From a virus: 20,579 nt of DNA. The stretch covers positions 1-20,579 of the IMG/VR virus record IMGVR_UViG_3300001683_000278. One strand, written 5' to 3'. Under the pieces are notes generated by a model. That model saw nothing but the letters and a program-made list of their open reading frames with translations, had not been told where the DNA came from and did no database searches. Both the position numbers and the translations under genes were made by a program. The first letter of the stretch is position 1, and every line of letters begins with the position of its first letter. Positions 3,426 through 20,579 of this stretch are shown here, in pieces.

Positions 3426-3460
3426 GCGCCCCGCTAGGCCTATTGTGCCTAGTGGGGCGC
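3426..3460 (+). terminator. Strong rho-independent terminator
   Basis: A 14-bp stem (3426-3439 with 3447-3460, one G-T wobble) with a 7-nt loop is followed immediately by TTTT at 3461-3464. It ends the head-core transcription unit and separates it from the accessory structural block. It lies in the 122-nt gap 3372-3493, which holds no gene. Confidence 0.85.
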
Positions 3461-3493
3461 TTTTACTCGTTTCTACCCCCTGAAGGAGCCACC

Positions 3494-4186
3494 ATGGCTA
3501 AATCACCGTACCTGACCGGAAAAGCAACCAGCTCCTGGTTCAGTCGCCGCGCCGGGTCCAACACTGGCGGGTCACACCCCCGGCACAACAATGAAGGGTT
3601 CCTGGTCGATGAGTTCGGCCACACAGTCCTTGATGGCGCCAACGCGCCCATTGAGTTGGGACGGACCACTACCACTTTCCCGGAATACTTCGAACACTAC
3701 AGCGAAGATTTCCCGAACGAGGCTAACGAGCTGGACAGCCTGAACGGCTGCACCACCGAGGGCCTGCTTTTTTCAGCCAGCTCCAATGACGTGTCCATCA
3801 ACTTCACCTCCGACCTCGTGAATCCTCCGGTATTCACCTTGCCGCCCCTCAACATCAACCTGGGCCTGAGCAACAAGGCCGCTCTCTCATGCGCAATGAA
3901 GTGGCGTATTCGGGATACGAACCTCAATGCCAACGTCCCCGATTTGGAGTACCCGGACATTTCATTGGTCGGGACCCTTACGAATGGGATGCAGACCAGT
4001 GCCGCCAGTTCGGTTACAGTGGGGCACCCGACGGACCCCACCCGAAAGCTCACTACCTGGAAGGCAGCTCCCGGAGACCCGTTCGGTAAATTGGTCGGAC
4101 TCTCCGTCCATTTCGGGGCTCCTTTTATTAACTCCGACTGGCTCCTTCAGATCTCTTACATCCTTATCACCGAAGGTGCGGCCTAA
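3494..4186 (+). CDS. Hypothetical phage structural protein (230 aa)
   Basis: The start at 3494 is set by AAGGAG at 3483-3488; an upstream in-frame TTG at 3443 lies inside the terminator stem and is not credible. I do not recognise the family. The N-terminal 40 residues are polar and Gly/Ser/Arg-rich (SSWFSRRAGSNTGGSHPRHN), followed by VDEFGHTVLDGANAPIELGR. From about residue 80 on the sequence alternates polar and hydrophobic residues with many Thr/Ser/Pro (LLFSASSNDVSINFTSDLVN, PPVFTLPPLNINLGLS), which suggests beta structure. There is no transmembrane helix or signal peptide. As the first gene after a strong terminator in a run of fibre-like genes, it may be a virion surface or attachment component; this is inference from position only. 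Confidence 0.7.
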   Translation: MAKSPYLTGKATSSWFSRRAGSNTGGSHPRHNNEGFLVDEFGHTVLDGANAPIELGRTTTTFPEYFEHYSEDFPNEANELDSLNGCTTEGLLFSASSNDVSINFTSDLVNPPVFTLPPLNINLGLSNKAALSCAMKWRIRDTNLNANVPDLEYPDISLVGTLTNGMQTSAASSVTVGHPTDPTRKLTTWKAAPGDPFGKLVGLSVHFGAPFINSDWLLQISYILITEGAA

Positions 4187-4219: not shown

Positions 4220-4615
4220 ATGGCAAACGCATCAAACTTCCTCCGCACCCAGATCGGGACGGAGTTCCTGAACATTGGCGCTGCTACCCTCCCGACTGTC
4301 CTCTACGTCGCACTCTTCACGGACTCCGTGAACGCAGCTGGCACGGGCACCGAGGTTACGGGCGGTTCTTACGCTCGCAAGCAGATTTCCGCATCCTCCT
4401 TCACCGATGATGGCGTTGGTGGGTTCTCCCTCAACACCGCTCTTGAGTTCGTCACCGCGACGGCTTCCTGGGGCACCATCGTCAGCATGGGCATCTATGA
4501 TGCTTCCGGCGCTGGCAACCTCATCGTGTTTGATGATCTCGCAGCAACCAAGACCATCGCAAACGGCGATGCTTTCCGGTTCAACTCGGGTTCCATCATT
4601 GTCAACATCAGCTAA
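4220..4615 (+). CDS. Small beta-rich phage protein, Gp80/tail-fibre-type
   Basis: A 131-aa protein; ribosome site AAAAGGA at 4204-4210, start ATG at 4220. The layout is a common phage family: an N-terminal helix (ASNFLRTQIGTEFLN), then LPTVLYVALFTDSVN, a Gly/Thr-rich turn (GTGTEVTGGSYARKQI), then TATASWGTIVSMGIYDASGA, LIVFDDLAATKTIANGD and FRFNSGSIIVNIS. Members are usually annotated as phage 'tail fibre' or hypothetical proteins; I believe the Pfam-type name is Gp80, but could not check. It is probably a small beta-sandwich virion component. It sits 17 nt upstream of the giant repeat protein, so the two are likely co-translated and may act together. Confidence 0.75.
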   Translation: MANASNFLRTQIGTEFLNIGAATLPTVLYVALFTDSVNAAGTGTEVTGGSYARKQISASSFTDDGVGGFSLNTALEFVTATASWGTIVSMGIYDASGAGNLIVFDDLAATKTIANGDAFRFNSGSIIVNIS

Positions 4616-4632: not shown

Positions 4633-7600
4633 ATGGGCGCAGATCTCGAAATCATTAGAGGGGTTACTCACGTACCCTACTCTACTTCTGCGTCCACGGT
4701 GGACACCCAGATCTTCCTCGCATACCCGTTCTCCGCATACACCGCCCCTCGTTGGGCCTTTGTCCGGCTCCTGTCCAACAATGGGTATGTGCAGGCTGTC
4801 AACAAAGATGGCCTTGACATGCCTCAGGGCTGTACCGCGGGCGACCAGTCCGCCGTTGTGTCCCTCCACGCCAACCTTACCCTTATGATGCCGCAGATCC
4901 TCGTCCGCGTAGAGTGTGGTCCGTCCACGGCTACGTGGAATGCTGGCGTCACTGAGGTCGACAGGTACGTGGCATGGGAAGTGTGGGAGTACGTTGGGGA
5001 CATTGACGCAGATGACGAGCTTTACATCCCGGGAGCAACCCCGGAAAGCGAGGAACTCCTCCTTGAGCATCAGTTGAACCAGACGGGTGGGCTTACGCTC
5101 GCCCAGGTCCCCAAATGTATCTCGTTCAACCGAGGTATCTCCTGGGAGCAAGAGACCGCAGGGGCAGGCATCCCCGGCGGCTACACCGACGAGACCAAGT
5201 ACGGCTGCTTCAGCGCAGCGTCCATTGACCTCTTCGGAAACCCGGGCACCCTCGTGTCTAACTCCGCCAACGGAGGAGGCCTCCACGCCACTGAGCGGGC
5301 CACCGCCCACTTTGATACGGTGTGGTTCAAAGGCTCTAACTGGGACGTTACGTTCTTCAACGTAGACAATCTAGGCAACCGCATGGCTGCAGGCTCCGGC
5401 ACGTATGACCTGACGCAGTTTGGGCCCTACGCCCCCGCGGACTGGTCCAAGACCGCAATCATCAATGGTGGCCACCGCTGGAGTTCGGACAACGACGCCG
5501 ACGCGGGCTTGGTGGTCTACCCCCATTACGATGACCTGGACACCCTGCAGATGAGCTGCGCCGTGGGCGACACCTTCGCCACTAATGACGGCCTGCCCAT
5601 CACCCTCCTTGAGAACGCAGGGGGCGGTATGTCCGTGACGAGGTTCGATAACCTCTCGACGGGCAAGAACAACGTAGACTTTACCGGGGAAACTGTGTCT
5701 GGAAAACGACACACGTATGACATCCCCTTGAACTTCGACTTCTACCGGGAGAATTTGTCTGGCACCTTCCCGGCCCTGAACCAGTACGCGTCCCTCACGG
5801 GCACCTATGGTTCTCTCGATAGCTCTCGCCCCACCGTGGCAGCGACTTTCGAGAACGTAGATTTCGGCGCTGACAGCATCAAGCTGTACCTCTGCGACAC
5901 AGATGGCGTGACAGACGAGGATGACTTCATCTTCGCTGTCGAGTGTCTCGACTTCGCTGTAGCCGGAACCGGCTCCGAATTGGAGCCCCGCCCCATCGCA
6001 AAGGATGGCGAGGCCAACGCGATCCTTACCGCTCTGGGCGACCCCATTGTCGATGACATGATCTTCTGGGACGGCGACGAGTACAACTTCATATGTAACA
6101 CCGCTACCGAAGGACATGTCACTGACTTGACCATCGCCGGAGGCGGCTCCTGGGAAGCAACCAGTCCCGGGGCAGGCCTCGAAACCGGGGCGTGGGTCTC
6201 CACGGACTTGGCGGCTATTGGCCGGTCTTGGGTTGGCGACGAGGATGACGAGATTGTTGTCACCTTCAAACCGGGCAACCGGGGTAGCGCATTGGCCGTA
6301 GGCCAGCTGACCCTGAAGACGGCAGACGCCACCCTCGCCTTCAATGCCAACATAGAATTCACCGAAAACATATGGGACGCCAGCGAAGGCGAACTCATGG
6401 AGTTGGTGTACAGCACGGGCTTTGAAGAAGGTCACGTGCCGGACCCCGACTACCTCGGCAAAACGATCACCGAAATGACCTTCCACGGTTGGACCTCCTT
6501 CATCACTGGCACTCCGACTAATATGGGTCTCCATAGCATTCGCGTACGCAAGCGCGTGCCCCACGGGTTCCAGTTCGCCACCAAAACTGGCGTCAGTGTT
6601 GGCTCCGTCGACACGGACTTCTCACCTGTCCTTAGGTGCGAAGGCGAAGTGCCCATCCCCTTCATCACGTGCGAGGTCTTCTATGGCCCCCACGGAACGA
6701 TGATCGGTGGCGGCACGTCCTCCCCGATATCTATGGTCACAGGCGAGCCCAAGATTGACACCCTGGCCCTCTGGGAAAACGAATACAACTTCACTGGCAG
6801 TGCTACCACTTCGCTCGTCATCCGGGCACAGGGCTTCCCTGGCGGCGGGTTCTACCTGCTAGCCTCCCCGGGCACTGGCCTGGAGTCCGGCCTCATCACA
6901 TCTACCGACCTCGCAGCCATTGGCAGCGACTGGGTTGGTGAGGCGCAAGATCGCCTCATAGTGACGCTTATTCCCGGGACTAGATCCCCCGGCACAGCGA
7001 TCAGTGGGCAGCTCAAGCTGACCAATGCTAGCGGCGACGTGATCACCTATGTCCCGCCCGTCTGGTTCACCGACTCGTGGTGGGACAGCCACTACCTACA
7101 GGCTGTAGACATCCCCTATGAAGTCGGCTACCACTCCAACTTAACCAAACGTGAGGAGTACATCGGCGACGTTATCGAGCAGATGCAGTTCATCGCCTAC
7201 GTGGACTTCACGTCCGGCGGGGGATCTACCGCAGGCATCACCTCAATCCGCGTCGAGCAGAACATCCCGCAGGATGTGCAGCTACTCCAGGGCGGCTCCG
7301 TCGATCCCGACGTGCAGCACATACTGGGAGCTTCGCTCAACGCAGAGTTCCGCGCGAACTCCACTTCGGACGTGATCCACACGGCTACCTCCGCGATCAA
7401 TGCCGCCCTCGGCTCAGAGGTCGACCCCACGGTCGACCATGATGCCGCCTCGGCGATCAACGCAGAGTTCCGTGGCGACACCTTCGGGTACATTAACCAT
7501 GACGTAGATGGCACTGGCAACTTCCTCGCAAGAGGGGACGCAGACCCCACGGTCATCCATGACCTCACGGGCAACGCGAACGCTGCCGTAAGCGGCGGCT

Positions 7601-9645
7601 CCATTGCTTCCAACATCATACACCTGCTTACAAGCAACCCCGTGGCAACACTCACGGGGGATGTGGACCCCACTGTAGTCCACACTGTAGACGGGGTTGG
7701 TAACGTGGTTCTTGGTGGCGACACCTCTAACTCCTTCCCGACCATCGTCCATGCAGTGGTCTCTACGGGTTCCGGCAACTTCGCAGGTTCAGCAGATCCT
7801 ACAGTCATCCATGACCTCACGGGCAACGCGAACTCCGTCCCTGGCGGCTCCGCAGACCCCACGGTCATCCATGACCTGACTGCTAACGCTAACGCTAAGG
7901 TGAGTGCATCCACTCCCCTCCTGTCAGTTGTACATGCTGCTTCCGCAGCCATCAATCGGACCTTCGGTGGGACCTCGGTCTCAACGGTCATCCATGACCT
8001 CGTCACGGCAGCAGTCGCGACGATGAGCGGATCGGTTGACTCGGACATCGTCCACACGGTGACGGCCTCCGTTGACAAGATCATCGGGGGGTCGGCAGAC
8101 GCGGCTGCGTCCCTCATCTCCGTACGAGGTGGCGACGTAGATTCTACGGTTGTCCATGACCTTGCTGCGACGCTCAACGGCATATTCCGTGCCGAGGCGG
8201 ACGCGACAGTCGTTCACGATCTCACGGCATCCCTCTCCGGCTTCTTCGGCGGGCAGGCCCTGTCGAGTATCGTGCATCTGGTCGACGCTACTCTGAGGAC
8301 GGCCTTCGGTGGAGTCACTGACCCCACGGTTGAGCATGACCTGACAACCGCACCTACAGCTACACTCACGGGCGACACCTTCGGCTACGTTACTCATAAC
8401 GTGGACGGCACAGGCAACGCCCTCCTGGTCGGCTCCGCTGACCCCACAGTAATCCACGCCGTAGATGGCATCGGTAACTTCCGCGCAAGCGGAGACGTTG
8501 CCGCAGACATCGCACTGCAATCCACAGCCACCCCGGTCGCGCTCCTCGTGGGCGCGGTCCTCTCGGACATAATCCACGTGATGGATTCGACCGGGACGCT
8601 CCTGAGCGGCGGAGGCTGCTCCGCCAACCCCATCATCGGCATCGATGCTGATGGTACGGCGAACTTCCTGGCAGTGGGCTCTTCAGCCCCTACGGTACAG
8701 CATCTAGTAGATGGCAATATCAATCTGCTCCTCGGACTGGGATCTAGTCCCTCCGTGGTCCACGATGTATCCGCCCTGGCCAATATCCTGGCTGGCGCGT
8801 CAGTCTCCTCAGCGACGATCAAGCACACCGCAGCGACCTCTCTGGCTCGCATGTTCGGCGGTGTGTCGGATCCGAACATCGAGCACATCGTGACTTCCTC
8901 CTCGACTGCCACGCACTCCGGGCAGGCGATAGGGAAGATAGTGCACTCCTTGGCCGCGTCGGTCTCCACCGCCTTTGGCGGCGACTCCGATCCCACGGTT
9001 GTACATGACCTCGTGTCCCAGCTAGCCGCCCTCCTCAACGCAGAGGCAGACGCATCCGTTATCCACACGGCAACCGCCAGTATCACCAAGATCCTTGGCG
9101 GGATTGTCGAGGCCTCTATCGAGACCGAGACAGCGTCCCTGGCTCAGCTGATTGCTGGCGCATCTACTGACTCCAACATCGAGACTACACTCACGCCCAC
9201 GCTGGCGGCGATCATCTCCCAGGCAATAGCCGAGGGCACGATCACCGTTGATGCTGAAGCCTCTGCGTCCTTCGATATCGCGTGCATCGAAGACCTCATT
9301 GGCAAGAACATCACTCTCACGGTGGGCACGGCACAGGTTCTCCTGCAGGAGGCCCTGACCGCTCAGGCCTCCACGGTCGCAGAGCTTGTCGGCACGTACA
9401 TCTCGGAAGGCACCCTGGGTGGTAGCACCAACACTACCCTGATCACAGTCGCAGAGCATTCAGCAGTGATGACCGCCTCGGCGGCAGCTTCGGCTCCCAT
9501 CATCCTGACGGCTACGCGGAACGACACCACCTCACTCACCGGGACCAGCACCGACTCCACAGACCTCACCGGGTCTGTCGAGGAGGCCACGGACCTGACG
9601 GGCGAGGCACTCACAACTACTGACCTTGACGGGTCACCCTGCTAA
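4633..9645 (+). CDS. Giant repeat-containing fibre-like structural protein (1670 aa)
   Basis: AGGAG (4622-4626) sets the start at 4633. Visible architecture: (a) residues 1-470, non-repetitive, aromatic and Asp/Gly-rich, probably several beta domains; (b) residues about 473-645 and 707-883, two diverged copies of one domain, both with EYNF, 'STDLAAIG..WVG', a 'PG.R' turn, 'G(Q)L.L' and 'SIRV'; (c) residues 887-1529, about 32 tandem units of mostly 20 residues with consensus like [DS]-x-D-P-T-V-[IV]-H-[DT]-[LV]; (d) residues 1530-1632, Ala/Thr-rich helical-looking region; (e) residues 1633-1670, four 10-residue 'T[DS]LTG' repeats. No signal peptide, transmembrane helix or enzyme motif is seen. 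Length, Thr/Ser/Asp-rich repeats and phage context suggest an elongated fibre, possibly a head or side fibre since the gene precedes the connector genes. I do not know a named family for the repeats. Confidence 0.85.
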   Translation: MGADLEIIRGVTHVPYSTSASTVDTQIFLAYPFSAYTAPRWAFVRLLSNNGYVQAVNKDGLDMPQGCTAGDQSAVVSLHANLTLMMPQILVRVECGPSTATWNAGVTEVDRYVAWEVWEYVGDIDADDELYIPGATPESEELLLEHQLNQTGGLTLAQVPKCISFNRGISWEQETAGAGIPGGYTDETKYGCFSAASIDLFGNPGTLVSNSANGGGLHATERATAHFDTVWFKGSNWDVTFFNVDNLGNRMAAGSGTYDLTQFGPYAPADWSKTAIINGGHRWSSDNDADAGLVVYPHYDDLDTLQMSCAVGDTFATNDGLPITLLENAGGGMSVTRFDNLSTGKNNVDFTGETVSGKRHTYDIPLNFDFYRENLSGTFPALNQYASLTGTYGSLDSSRPTVAATFENVDFGADSIKLYLCDTDGVTDEDDFIFAVECLDFAVAGTGSELEPRPIAKDGEANAILTALGDPIVDDMIFWDGDEYNFICNTATEGHVTDLTIAGGGSWEATSPGAGLETGAWVSTDLAAIGRSWVGDEDDEIVVTFKPGNRGSALAVGQLTLKTADATLAFNANIEFTENIWDASEGELMELVYSTGFEEGHVPDPDYLGKTITEMTFHGWTSFITGTPTNMGLHSIRVRKRVPHGFQFATKTGVSVGSVDTDFSPVLRCEGEVPIPFITCEVFYGPHGTMIGGGTSSPISMVTGEPKIDTLALWENEYNFTGSATTSLVIRAQGFPGGGFYLLASPGTGLESGLITSTDLAAIGSDWVGEAQDRLIVTLIPGTRSPGTAISGQLKLTNASGDVITYVPPVWFTDSWWDSHYLQAVDIPYEVGYHSNLTKREEYIGDVIEQMQFIAYVDFTSGGGSTAGITSIRVEQNIPQDVQLLQGGSVDPDVQHILGASLNAEFRANSTSDVIHTATSAINAALGSEVDPTVDHDAASAINAEFRGDTFGYINHDVDGTGNFLARGDADPTVIHDLTGNANAAVSGGSIASNIIHLLTSNPVATLTGDVDPTVVHTVDGVGNVVLGGDTSNSFPTIVHAVVSTGSGNFAGSADPTVIHDLTGNANSVPGGSADPTVIHDLTANANAKVSASTPLLSVVHAASAAINRTFGGTSVSTVIHDLVTAAVATMSGSVDSDIVHTVTASVDKIIGGSADAAASLISVRGGDVDSTVVHDLAATLNGIFRAEADATVVHDLTASLSGFFGGQALSSIVHLVDATLRTAFGGVTDPTVEHDLTTAPTATLTGDTFGYVTHNVDGTGNALLVGSADPTVIHAVDGIGNFRASGDVAADIALQSTATPVALLVGAVLSDIIHVMDSTGTLLSGGGCSANPIIGIDADGTANFLAVGSSAPTVQHLVDGNINLLLGLGSSPSVVHDVSALANILAGASVSSATIKHTAATSLARMFGGVSDPNIEHIVTSSSTATHSGQAIGKIVHSLAASVSTAFGGDSDPTVVHDLVSQLAALLNAEADASVIHTATASITKILGGIVEASIETETASLAQLIAGASTDSNIETTLTPTLAAIISQAIAEGTITVDAEASASFDIACIEDLIGKNITLTVGTAQVLLQEALTAQASTVAELVGTYISEGTLGGSTNTTLITVAEHSAVMTASAAASAPIILTATRNDTTSLTGTSTDSTDLTGSVEEATDLTGEALTTTDLDGSPC
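6061..7281 (+). repeat. Duplicated ~175-residue domain in the giant protein
   Basis: Two protein-level copies lie at about 6049-6570 and 6751-7281. Shared landmarks in the same order are W.(G)(D)EYNF, then SPG(A/T)GLE(T/S)G, STDLAAIG, a (R)SWVG/SDWVG motif, 'D.(I/L)IVT(F/L).PG.R', 'GQL.L', a 'FT(E/D)..WD' segment, then 'Y(L)G..I..M.F' and 'SIRV'. The copies are clearly diverged at DNA level, so this is an old tandem domain duplication. They probably form two stacked globular beta domains ahead of the repeat array. Confidence 0.7.
7291..9219 (+). repeat. Array of about 32 tandem 60-bp (20-residue) repeats with conserved His
   Basis: In-frame repeat array coding residues 887-1529 of the giant protein. 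By hand I segment 32 units: 19 are exactly 20 residues and most others 18-23. The typical unit reads [DSE]-[AV]-D-[PS]-T-[VI]-[VI]-H-[DT]-[LVA]-T-x-x-[AG]-N-x-x-[FL]-x-G. Of units 1-30, 27 carry the His at or near position 8; the exceptions are units 14, 21 and 23. Units 31-32 have Glu near that place. Unit 14 (8092-8133) is shortened to about 14 residues. Some units are near-identical at DNA level (7549-7578 against 7861-7875 and parts of 7801-7836), so part of the array expanded recently. The regular period suggests a solenoid or intertwined beta fibre. Confidence 0.85.
9529..9642 (+). repeat. Four 10-residue T-[DS]-L-[TD]-G repeats at the giant protein's C-terminus
   Basis: The last 38 residues read as TTSLTGTSTD, STDLTGSVEE, ATDLTGEALT and TTDLDGSPC: a 30-bp in-frame period distinct from the 60-bp array. 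It could be an extended tip, a linker or a docking peptide. The last unit is partial and ends in Cys. Confidence 0.7.
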
Positions 9646-11666: not shown

Positions 11667-12281
11667 ATGTCCGATACTAATCGCGTATCAATCCGAGCCA
11701 TTGAGGAGACCACGTACGGAACCACTCCGAACACGGGCAACCTCAAGGCCGTCCCCTTCACCTCCGCTTCGGACCTCGGCTTCACCCCCGAGACCGTTAC
11801 TTCCGGCATTATCCGTGATGACCGACAGGTTTCCGACCTCGTCCTCGTCGGCGGATCCACCGCTGGCGGTTTCGACTCCGAACTCGCTTACGAGATCCAC
11901 AACGAGCTTCTGGAAGGCGTCATGCAGTCTGCATGGGTCTCCAACGCAGCAGCTGACATCGCAGCAACTGACATCGCAATCACCGCCACCGAGATCACCA
12001 CCGTCGGTGAGGACTTCACCACTCTGGGCCTCGTCCAGGGCGACTGGATCCGCGTTTCCGGGTTCGCTGACGCAACCCTGAACGGCACCGCTCGTGTCAA
12101 TGGCACCGTGACCACCACGGAGATCCCGGTTGAGCGATCCGTCGCAGCCAACCCCGAGATCGCAGGCGCTTCGACAACGGCTCCACTCAGAAGTCCTACT
12201 CCATTGAGCGGACCTTCAACGACCAGGCCACCGTCCTGCATGAGTACCTCCGCGGCATGGTTCCGGGAACTTTCTCCCTGA
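11667..12281 (+). CDS. Tail tube protein, N-terminal part (reading frame broken near 12170)
   Basis: AAGGAG at 11654-11659 sets the start. MSDTNRVSIRAIEETTYGTT, then VPFTSASDLGFTPETVTSGI and 'RDDRQVSDLVLVGGSTAGGFDSELAYE' match the phage tail tube family I know as Phage_tube_2: 'VTSeeIrsDRqv.D...vG..a.G.f..Els'. The protein forms stacked hexameric rings around the tape measure. The homologous sequence stops at about residue 168 (IAGA, 12162-12170). Beyond this the frame codes an unrelated Pro/Ser/Thr-rich stretch and stops at 12281. The family's second half is found in the -1 frame, ending at 12829. The expected full product would be about 387 aa. The break is most simply a missing T in GCT-TC (a 1-nt deletion). 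Confidence 0.85.
   Translation: MSDTNRVSIRAIEETTYGTTPNTGNLKAVPFTSASDLGFTPETVTSGIIRDDRQVSDLVLVGGSTAGGFDSELAYEIHNELLEGVMQSAWVSNAAADIAATDIAITATEITTVGEDFTTLGLVQGDWIRVSGFADATLNGTARVNGTVTTTEIPVERSVAANPEIAGASTTAPLRSPTPLSGPSTTRPPSCMSTSAAWFRELSP
12168..12172 (+). other. Frame break inside tail tube gene
   Basis: Family-like sequence passes from frame 11667 to the -1 frame at about GCTTC (12168-12172). Adding one T (GCT TTC GAC) would give ...IAGA-FDNGS... without interruption. No X XXY YYZ slippery heptamer is present here, and both halves are needed for one fold, so a single-base deletion in the assembly or in the phage is more likely than programmed frameshifting. Confidence 0.75.
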
Positions 12282-12829
12282 GCGCAACGGCCAAGGAACT
12301 CGTCACTTGCTCCTTCGGTTTCACTGGATCCACCCAGGAATACACCACTACCCGCGTCTCCGGTCTCACTGACACCGACGCAACCACATCCGGCCAGTTC
12401 GACGTGTTCAACGCGTCCAGCAATGTCGGGTCGATCACCGAGGGCGGAAACGTCATCGACGGTGCTAACTTCGTCATGGAAGCTACCATCGAGATCGAGA
12501 ACAACCTTCGCGAGCGCAACGCCGTTTCTTCCCTCGGCGCTGTCTCCATCGGTTCCGGCGAGTTCGTCGTTACTGGTACCCTGAACACCTACTTCGACAA
12601 CAAGGACCTCGCAGACAAGGTTGTGGCTAACACCGAATCTTCCTTCTCGATCTCCTTCAATGACAACGCTGGCAACACGCTCGTGTTCGATCTGTCTCGG
12701 ATCAAGTTCTCCGAGGGTTCCCCGGAAGTCGGAAACAAGGACGAGGACGTTATGTTGAACCTCACCTTCCAGGCTATCCTGAACGCAACCACCGGTTCCA
12801 CCCTGAAGATCACGCGGTTCGACGCGTAA
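12257..12829 (+). CDS. Tail tube protein, C-terminal part (-1 frame continuation)
   Basis: The frame is listed from its first ATG, but family-like coding clearly starts upstream at about 12170 (FDNGSTQKSYSIERTFNDQA). That segment corresponds to the usual 'ngs.krSysiErqf.d...y..frGmv' of Phage_tube_2 proteins, followed by VPGTFSLSATAKELVTCSFG and FTGSTQEYTTTRVSG. No ribosome site precedes 12257. The remainder (MEATIEIENNLRERNAVSSL, 'GSGEFVVTGTLNTYFDNKDLADKVV', 'SFSISFNDNAGNTLVFDLSRIKF') is the typical C-terminal half of the tube protein. It is therefore not an independent gene but the second half of the gene starting at 11667. Confidence 0.82.
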   Translation: MVPGTFSLSATAKELVTCSFGFTGSTQEYTTTRVSGLTDTDATTSGQFDVFNASSNVGSITEGGNVIDGANFVMEATIEIENNLRERNAVSSLGAVSIGSGEFVVTGTLNTYFDNKDLADKVVANTESSFSISFNDNAGNTLVFDLSRIKFSEGSPEVGNKDEDVMLNLTFQAILNATTGSTLKITRFDA

Positions 12830-12905: not shown

Positions 12906-13319
12906 ATGTCCATTTACTCCCTATTCGACAGCAATGAAAAGGCCGAAATTAACGGCTTCATGTACACCGTCCAGGACGGCGCAATCGAGATCAGCTTCCT
13001 CCTGGCACGCGCAGGCGGCGCCAACAAGCAGTTCACCAAGAAGATGGCCGAGGCCCTTCGTCCCCACCAGCACGCCATGAACGCAGGCTCTCTTGATGAG
13101 GACCTCATGATCAAGCTCCAGATCGATGTTATGTCGGAGACCCTGGTCCTGGACTGGGCGAACTTGGCAACCCGAGACGGCGAAGAGATTGACTACTCCA
13201 AAGAAGAGTGCGTCAAGCTCCTGACCGCCCTCCCCGCCCTTCGCGACCTGCTCTTTGAGCAGTGCAACAACCGCGCGAACTTCGCACACGAAGAGCGAGA
13301 AGAGTCGGCAAAATCCTAA
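12906..13319 (+). CDS. Tail assembly chaperone, first frame (gpG-like)
   Basis: A 137-aa, acidic, mostly helical protein between the tail tube and tape measure genes, the standard place of the lambda gpG equivalent. GGAGA at 12892-12896 lies 9 nt before the ATG. Sequence landmarks: NGFMYTVQDGAIEISFLLAR near the N-terminus, 'MIKLQIDVMSETLVLDWANL' and 'EECVKLLTALPALRDLLFEQ' in the middle, and a charged end. 'lvldW' followed by 'y..e.......p.lr..l' is common in short tail-chaperone frames. The chaperone binds the tape measure and recruits tube subunits and is absent from the finished virion. The stop at 13317-13319 lies right after an AAAA run, where a -1 shift would join it to the next frame. 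Confidence 0.78.
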   Translation: MSIYSLFDSNEKAEINGFMYTVQDGAIEISFLLARAGGANKQFTKKMAEALRPHQHAMNAGSLDEDLMIKLQIDVMSETLVLDWANLATRDGEEIDYSKEECVKLLTALPALRDLLFEQCNNRANFAHEEREESAKS

Positions 13320-13702
13320 AGGAGTTCCTGGGGTGGCAGGCGAAGTGGGGGGAACACGCCCCCAAGATCGCAGCCGCCGCGACTGACGCAGGGGTCCCCA
13401 TTCCGGCTAACGCAATAGCGCCGGTAGTGCCCCCGCACCTTATGGGGTACATGGGGATCTTCTGGAAACTCCACACTTGCAGGTCCATGGGCTTCGGCCC
13501 GGGACCCATCCCGTGGACCGCAATCGACAAGTACGCGGAACGTCACGGAATGCTTGACGATGAGGTCCTGTACGATGACCTAATCTTCATCATCATGGCT
13601 CTGGATCAACACTGGCTAAATCAGGTTCAAGCTGAGCAGGCCAAGACCGCCAAGACGGCGGATGGCGCACAGCCGAAATCGAATCTGAAACCCACATGGT
13701 AA
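13262..13702 (+). CDS. Tail assembly chaperone, second frame (gpT-like, expressed by -1 frameshift)
   Basis: This frame is open from a GTG at 13262 that has no ribosome site and overlaps the previous gene by 58 nt. The first codons are probably not translated in this frame. The part past 13313 looks real: ILKEFLGWQAKWGEHAPKIA, VVPPHLMGYMGIFWKLHTCR and 'DKYAERHGMLDDEVLYDDLIFIIMALDQHW', ending in a Lys/Ala/Gln tail. Tail chaperones of siphophages are typically made as a short form and a -1 extended form. Here a shift at AAA (13311-13313) would give a fusion of about 265 aa (...ESAK-ILKEF...). 'Y..l....F..Wl..Q' style helical content is typical of the gpT part. Confidence 0.7.
   Translation: MQQPRELRTRRARRVGKILKEFLGWQAKWGEHAPKIAAAATDAGVPIPANAIAPVVPPHLMGYMGIFWKLHTCRSMGFGPGPIPWTAIDKYAERHGMLDDEVLYDDLIFIIMALDQHWLNQVQAEQAKTAKTADGAQPKSNLKPTW
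13307..13319 (+). other. Candidate -1 programmed frameshift site
   Basis: Zero-frame codons TCG GCA AAA TCC TAA (13305-13319). The run AAAA at 13310-13313 lets tRNA-Lys slip back from AAA to AAA just before the stop. The heptamer G GCA AAA is not the classical X XXY YYZ pattern, as the P-site codon would re-pair poorly. A GC stem of six pairs (13346-13351 with 13359-13364, 7-nt loop) lies 33 nt downstream, rather far for a stimulator. The arrangement of the two frames supports the shift more than the site itself does. Confidence 0.5.
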
Positions 13703-19412: not shown

Positions 19413-20363
19413 ATGACTACTTTCATCTCCACGAGAACCCCCATCATCCTGGGTGATGGGCTACAGATAACCGGTATGGTTACGCCCGCGAATGACAGAT
19501 GGTCCTTCATGATCCCCGACCACTCCACCTCCCTGACGCTTGGGGCGGACGGCTCCGGGCTCGCCACGAGCGCGGATGCGGGAATCGTCCCGGTTAGCTC
19601 TGGGGTCACCTCCCATACACTGGTCCAGCCCTGGAGCATCAGCTACACCTCCACCAACGACTCCCAGCTTGATGGGTGGCACTACGGAAACCTGTTCTTC
19701 GAGCGCTACCACGTCTTCCCGGCATCGGAAGACCTCGGCACGATCCTGTCGGACACCCAGTCCTCCTTCCAGGTACACAACGCGTTCCGCGAACTCCACG
19801 ATACCCTGAACGACCTCACTATTGGAGGCACGGGCGGCGAAGGCACCACCGTCACCCTGAGCATCTCCGGCGAGGACTACTCCACCGCGCTACCGCTCCT
19901 CCTCCAGGCACTCCGGTCCCACAAGTTCGACTTCACGGTCCTGGGCTCCGGCGCGTCCACCTTCGACATTTCGATTACGCCGGTGATGGCCTCCGCGCAG
20001 TTCTTCCCCTCCTTCAACGTGACAGGGTCCCGCGCCCTCGTCTTCCCGTTCATCCCGCAGCGCCCGGTCAGTGAGAACATCCAGTTCATGACCTCCGTCC
20101 TGACCTCCAAGGACGGGACCGAGAACCGTTTGGCAGAGCGCAAGAACGCTCGCCAGTCCTTCAACATGAAGTACCTGATCGACCAGCAAGATCCCCAAAT
20201 GTACCAGAACGCGCAGGCCATCGGGGGTTGGTATGTGGCACCAGACCCGCAAGCTAACCTCGTCAGCCGCTGTATCAGACACCGAAGTTCTGCTGGATAC
20301 CGCGGACCTAGACTTCCGCGTAGGCGGGTACGGGCTCTTGTGGAGCGACTGGAATCAAACTGA
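19413..20363 (+). CDS. Tail protein, N-terminal part (frame shifts by +1 near 20240-20265)
   Basis: AAGGAAGGG at 19398-19406 precedes the ATG. The N-terminal 210 residues are beta-rich (TRTPIILGDGLQITGMVTPA; TALPLLLQALRSHKFDFTVL). Residues about 212-270 contain VFPFIPQRPVSENIQFMTSV, LTSKDGTENRLAERKNARQS and FNMKYLIDQQ, a pattern ('P..p..e.l.f.T.v..s.dGtE.R...R..pRq.f.m.y') I know from phage tail proteins that follow the tape measure. The last about 40 residues in this frame (RHRSSAGYRGPRLPRRRVRA) are Arg-rich and out of character, while the +1 frame carries a natural continuation to the window end. The gene is therefore probably longer than shown and the stop at 20363 false. Confidence 0.72.
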   Translation: MTTFISTRTPIILGDGLQITGMVTPANDRWSFMIPDHSTSLTLGADGSGLATSADAGIVPVSSGVTSHTLVQPWSISYTSTNDSQLDGWHYGNLFFERYHVFPASEDLGTILSDTQSSFQVHNAFRELHDTLNDLTIGGTGGEGTTVTLSISGEDYSTALPLLLQALRSHKFDFTVLGSGASTFDISITPVMASAQFFPSFNVTGSRALVFPFIPQRPVSENIQFMTSVLTSKDGTENRLAERKNARQSFNMKYLIDQQDPQMYQNAQAIGGWYVAPDPQANLVSRCIRHRSSAGYRGPRLPRRRVRALVERLESN

Positions 20364-20579
20364 GGTGGTACGCATCGCCACAATCGCGGCCGACCGGCTC
20401 ACCCTGGAATCCGACCTGGAGTTCGCCTGGGACGCGGCCGATACATATGTTGTGCCGGTCCAGCTGTGCGTGTCCGAGGACATGCCCTCCGTGCACCGCA
20501 GGCAGACCAACGTGGCCACCCTCGACATCAACTGGACCTCTACAGAGGACACCAGTACCCTGGAAGTCAACGACCTGTA
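20251..20579 (+). CDS. Tail protein continuation in +1 frame (runs off window end)
   Basis: Coding from about 20251 in the +1 frame reads KLTSSAAVSDTEVLLDTADL, DFRVGGYGLLWSDWNQTEVV, RIATIAADRLTLESDLEF, and stays open to 20579. 'i..dt.d.dfr.GgyglLW.d.n..EvvrIa.i..d.ltLes.' is the usual next part of the same tail protein family after the 'dGtEnR' block, so it belongs to the gene at 19413. No ribosome site or start codon is found at the frame change. The 3' end is outside the window. The start coordinate is approximate. Confidence 0.68.

Follow-up and report, generated by a model that had tools for sequence, protein, structure and literature searches.

What kind of protein carries 32 tandem units of about 20 residues with a histidine at the same place in nearly all of them, and does it stand alone or belong to a wider class? 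The units lie in a giant gene of a 20,579-base virus record, analysed here over its whole length and called the window, which holds a siphophage's structural gene block, including a capsid protein of Chi/lambda type, a scaffold, a head closure protein and a tape measure. The reading that we favour, with a probability of about 0.6, is that the array, enlarged by duplication and equipped with a unique histidine ladder that is predicted to point inward, forms the shaft of a virion fibre and belongs to a widespread repeat class encoded beside Gp80 genes.

The giant gene and its repeat array

The relevant features of the window are:

1808-2842, + strand: major capsid protein, Chi/lambda type (phrog_247, 1.1e-84; relatives in 724 phage records)
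4220-4615, + strand: Gp80-family protein (PF23140 / phrog_240), homologous by profile match to chain a of PDB 8jou
4633-9645, + strand: giant virion-type protein, 1670 aa, one ORF with ATG start and AGGAG upstream
4633-6039, + strand: N-terminal part, aa 1-469, conserved in locus L005, without family match
6040-6600, + strand: ~185-aa domain, copy 1, aa 470-656 (34% identity to copy 2, E 1e-35)
6715-7284, + strand: ~185-aa domain, copy 2, aa 695-884, immediately before the repeats (34% identity to copy 1)
7291-9216, + strand: 32-unit, 20-residue array with the His ladder, aa 887-1528, a predicted parallel beta-solenoid
9520-9642, + strand: 10-residue repeats T-D-L-T-G-x5 at the C-terminus, to the protein end (lag-10 identity)

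The giant gene lies in the head/neck gene block, between the capsid and connector genes, and its start at 4633 is directly downstream of the Gp80 gene end at 4615. Residues 1-310 of its product are 46% identical to a truncated (partial) orthologue in L005, a locus with the same gene order in which the orthologue also follows Gp80. Protein searches gave no direct relative of the giant in annotated phages or in viral contigs, and a search with the alignment of its N-terminal part returned none besides L005. Orthologues spanning the repeat region were not found in the phage and viral contig searches either. Searches with the duplicated ~185-aa domain gave no relatives and no Pfam or PDB match. 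Upstream of Gp80, a 247-aa gene without family (3443-4186) has a divergent counterpart in L005, which shows a weak DUF5879 match.

The 32 tandem units counted in the preliminary description are confirmed at nt 7291-9216 (aa 887-1528), and its count of a histidine at one position in 27 of the first 30 units is exact. Most units are exactly 20 aa long, a few have 19, 21 or 23, and one is truncated to 15 aa (aa 1151-1165). Self-identity of the array is 0.254 at lag 20, 0.204 at lag 40 and 0.149 at lag 60, compared with a largest value of 0.140 over all lags in 300 shuffles. The hand-registered units give the consensus G-[GA]-x-x-D-P-T-[VI]-[IV]-H-[DT]-[LV]-[TD]-...-[LF], in agreement with the one first proposed. 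Of 28 histidines in the array, 27 occupy the ladder position, filling it in 27 of the 31 alignable units, and one lies elsewhere; Thr stands at the ladder position in the last two units. At 4.2 bits, the His column stands above every other column of the unit. The array is followed by ~90 aa and then by four C-terminal 10-residue repeats T-D-L-T-G-x5, whose lag-10 identity of 0.438 in the last 42 aa was reached by none of 2000 shuffles.

The repeat pattern is old and is maintained by selection. Identical residues in different units share the same codon in 40.1% of cases, compared with 41.5% expected from the codon use of the gene. Since codon sharing does not exceed expectation, the array is not a recent expansion and its units diverged long ago. 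Synonymous codons are thus randomised between units, so the conserved residues, above all His, have been kept by selection. A larger tandem duplication inside the array, covering ~15 units (299 aa) at 41% identity, is saturated at synonymous sites as well (0.377 against 0.419 expected).

Sequence searches with the array in Pfam, PHROG and PDB were empty or gave chance matches, so the initial statement that no family could be named stands for these curated libraries. A motif scan of the giant revealed no adenovirus shaft, RTX, pentapeptide, hexapeptide, YadA, CsgA or collagen pattern, and the GGxGxDxUx motif of RTX-type Ca-binding beta-rolls has 0 matches. Looking for DPTV[IV]HDL in viral contigs, or for paired T[VI][VI]H in the genomes of bacteria, gave no homologue, and no search produced a match to the His ladder. 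A DNA-level search of viral contigs for V[VI]H recurring with period 20 turned up chance reading-frame matches, tracts of low complexity and two further phage repeat proteins (L076 and L049). The former belongs with phage minor tail proteins (L076:1-714; L078:5932-7680, McProf gp72) that have repeats of ~20-23 residues such as SVIHTRAFGT and SIPSAEAFGT, with His in most units of L076; kinship of the array with these EAFG/RAFG repeats, which occur in minor tail proteins of mycobacteriophages, is not supported. The latter is a 323-aa phage protein (L049:4853-5824) with period 20 (identity 0.49); several of its units contain VVH, and it adjoins a region of 16-residue repeats.

A period-20 repeat class beside Gp80

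The ORF at 4220-4615 matches Pfam Gp80 (PF23140, E 6.9e-31), the PHROG 'head protein' (phrog_240, 3.5e-17) and, by profile, 8jou_a from the podophage GP4 (E 3.5e-21). The fibril that connects an adhesin with the tail collar of GP4 is formed by a chain in 8JOU (PMC13243795). The GP4 fibre module (PDB 8JOU) contains Gp80 as chain a and the fibril as chain g; the neighbour gene in the window is homologous to chain a, and the giant itself has no sequence match to any 8JOU chain. GP4 is a podophage, whereas the window carries a tape measure gene. By homology and position, the Gp80-like protein is likely an adaptor beside the fibre.

With the Gp80 alignment, 80 IMG/VR loci were gathered, 72 of which have a gene directly downstream, and a 20-residue period was called at z>4 at lag 20. 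The period was present in 42 of the 72 genes directly after Gp80 and in 9 of 429 other ORFs. With redundancy removed, the period occurred in 28 of 50 genes after Gp80 and in 8 of 279 other ORFs (Fisher p 5e-20). A protein of this period occupies the position in many unrelated phages. Almost every period-20 ORF of the background is itself such a repeat protein, placed one or more genes further from Gp80, and a period-20 protein is adjacent to or near Gp80 in 51 of the 80 loci. Annotated phages show the same arrangement. The gene after Gp80 encodes a 'serine-rich adhesin' in ct2t2046 (lag-20 identity 0.258, shuffle maximum 0.160), UOF82909 in ctjtQ328 (0.282) and the 'tail protein' gp59 in Methylophilales phage MEP401 (0.243). 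Weaker cases occur in phiM5, OH and C72C1, and no 20-residue period is found in the corresponding gene of Lietuvens, PVJ1, DB2 and ACP17. The class is not in Pfam, and PHROGs barely touch it, those that do being mostly of unknown function. A literature search of open papers gave no description of it, which is weak evidence. This widespread phage repeat class is missing from curated libraries and is recognisable by its position after Gp80 together with its period, not by sequence.

Further repeats were noted in other loci. The longest family protein of this regular kind encountered, apart from the giant, is a 416-aa period-20 protein soon after Gp80 (L279:4828, identity 0.44). The genes after Gp80 in Roseophages CRP-5 and CRP-4 (L187:2112-2936 and L195:2447-3208) carry RITESGDTR-type repeats of 8-10 residues. 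A 516-aa protein at the equivalent place before a phrog_1084 gene (L025:8447-9997) ends in 11-residue GDLTRRTTVAA repeats.

The window array shares with this class the gene position directly after PF23140, the 20-residue period and C-terminal repeats of ~10 residues; the profile likeness of the units is weak and marginal. In a comparison with hhalign, the 60-column profile of window units scored 17.7 against a profile of 331 family units (P 0.0011, with a probability of just 20%), and 300 permutations with period and composition preserved all fell short of this score (best 17.5). HMMER unit profiles did not detect Gp80-linked proteins above shuffles. Other traits set the giant apart. Gp80-linked proteins usually have 4-10 units (one has 18), are mostly 180-330 aa long and contain almost no His (10 in 11,159 residues in the proteins adjacent to Gp80), whereas the giant has 32 units, 1670 aa and a His ladder. 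The terminal 10-mers have Trp in Gp80-linked proteins and Leu at that place in the giant. Membership of the array in the class is likely, judging from these features, but not proven. The giant looks like an oversized, His-rich outlier of a common, unnamed kind of phage repeat protein. The suggestion that it represents an undescribed structural system in its own right is not supported as a stand-alone novelty: many other phage genes after Gp80 share its period, and a weak profile match, tested against controls, connects it with them.

Alternatively, the array may be unrelated to the Gp80-linked proteins and merely alike in coil length. About 20 residues is a common coil length among solenoids, and the sequence similarity is marginal, as the hhalign probability of 20% and the lack of a HMMER match indicate. 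Against such convergence stand the same place in the gene order, a common period, 10-residue repeats at both C-termini and a weak match above all permutations. We regard it as possible, though clearly the less probable account.

Predicted fold and the histidine ladder

AlphaFold2 monomer models were computed from alignments built solely from the window's own repeat segments. The model of 120 aa of the array has a pLDDT of 63.6 and a pTM of 0.56, and that of 323 aa has a pLDDT of 65.2 and a pTM of 0.59. Both show two beta strands per 20 residues, in the longer model over 14 units, and 14 of its 15 histidines lie within strands. Each unit is thus predicted to form one coil of a parallel beta-solenoid, at a modest model confidence (pLDDT 64-65). 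In Foldseek searches against the PDB, neither model had a match below E 0.03, and the 120-aa model had none below E 0.099 in a viral library. With VIA-align, nearly all structures listed for the 323-aa model are beta-solenoids or beta-helices. The best low-rmsd match is MpAFP (3p4g; Z 21.8, rmsd 3.0 over 264), CsgA is poor in spite of Z 22.8 (rmsd 9.4), and the tailspike beta-helices of P22, 9NA and Sf6 reach Z ~17.5-18 (P22, Z 17.9). Absence from structure-search lists is not counted as proof of a new fold.

Two known systems resemble the model in part. MpAFP RII (3p4g) is a Ca2+-bound RTX-type beta-solenoid with a coil of 19 residues, similar in size to that of the window model, and has a row of ligands along the solenoid. 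Its row consists of Ca2+ bound in turns, whereas that of the window consists of His in predicted strands without an RTX motif. Phages with beta-solenoid adhesins are already known. Phage tailspikes (P22, 9NA, Sf6) place a parallel beta-helix in a virion adhesin, as predicted for the array, but their coils are irregular, and they are trimers, often enzymatic, without sequence similarity to it.

The original proposal of a solenoid with a ladder of His is borne out in part. The repeat segment, modelled as a monomer as had been suggested, shows regular beta strands in coils of 20 residues, with His at the same strand place in nearly every coil (pLDDT 64-65). HxH metal sites in phage fibres likewise put His in the shaft, yet the HxH motif occurs nowhere in the giant. 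Around the ladder His, position -2 is Ile or Val in 100% of units and position +2 is aliphatic or Ala in 90%, while DEKRNQ residues make up 29% at -1 and 45% at +1. By this alternation of side chains, the His would face the core, on the same side as -2 and +2. We infer that it points inward together with the Val/Ile at -2 and the Leu/Val at +2. In the gap-free profile match to the Gp80-linked units, the His column is aligned next to the inward position of the family and not with it, so this match does not confirm the inward facing.

A different geometry would be a trimeric beta fibre, either a triple beta-helix or a beta-spiral, in which each layer brings three His together on the axis, where they bind metal or anions. 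Phage fibre shafts are mostly trimeric, such a fibre is equally compatible with a short, regular period and alternating hydrophobics, and the Ala/Val/Thr alternation of the Gp80-linked family would suit such shafts. Against this, the monomer models give a continuous solenoid without partners, and the giant lacks adenovirus-shaft, collagen and YadA patterns; neither point is decisive. A trimer seems to us rather improbable, with perhaps one chance in four.

For the array as the fibre shaft of the Gp80-linked class, we suggest the following. The array is most likely a rod-like virion fibre shaft, its location in the virion being suggested by synteny. One 20-residue unit would form one coil, with a strand at 7-12, a turn and a strand at 16-21, and 32 coils at ~0.48 nm would make a rod of ~15 nm by simple arithmetic. 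The Gp80-like protein may anchor the fibre to the virion at the head, neck or tail. The gene order favours attachment on the head-neck side, but Gp80 genes adjoin tail genes in podophages, so a place at the tail may be considered as well. The N-terminal region with the duplicated ~185-aa domains would be the exposed and perhaps receptor-binding part, binding being most plausibly the task of the N-terminal domains. The C-terminal 10-residue repeats may be an end module common to the Gp80-linked family. Along the rod, as the strand alternation suggests, the 27 imidazoles would form a stacked ladder in the interior and lend it stability; the stack could also render the rod sensitive to metal or pH. 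Asn or aromatic ladders stabilise other solenoids. The giant offers a concrete outlier for probing the role of a buried His ladder in a beta-solenoid.

The ladder could instead have been selected as a device, binding Zn, Ni, Cu or Fe between rungs or unzipping on His protonation. Retention of His in 27 of 31 units at codon-saturated divergence, beside a family with next to no His, marks a specific and maintained departure, and from general geometry a rung spacing of ~4.8 Å would permit a metal between successive imidazoles. The missing HxH motif speaks against such a device, and a buried structural role accounts for the conservation of His equally well. We consider it unlikely. More doubtful still is the specific form in which a shaft within the Gp80-linked solenoid class holds an internal stack of more than 25 His with a linear metal chain or a cooperative pH zipper. 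If metal is indeed bound by the ladder, the virion would contain a natural one-dimensional array of metal. That the array is a low-complexity artefact or a pseudogene-like expansion without structure is scarcely credible: its composition is rich in Ala, Ser, Thr, Val and Gly, but the ORF is open over 1670 codons, its N-terminus has an orthologue in place in L005, and synonymous saturation with conserved residues contradicts it.

Other genes of the window

Elsewhere in the window, the tail-tube gene (11667-12829) is split over two ORFs (11667-12281 and 12257-12829) that overlap in different frames, while it is a single ORF in relatives such as L009; the split is probably an assembly indel or a broken gene. 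An overlapping tail-assembly chaperone pair of 137 aa and 146 aa lies in different frames at 12906-13702, as in the G/GT arrangement, but their overlap lacks a canonical XXXYYYZ slippery site. At 19413-20577, the C-terminus of ORF 19413-20363 is in another frame than the ORF that continues after 20233, a frame change that is a probable indel.
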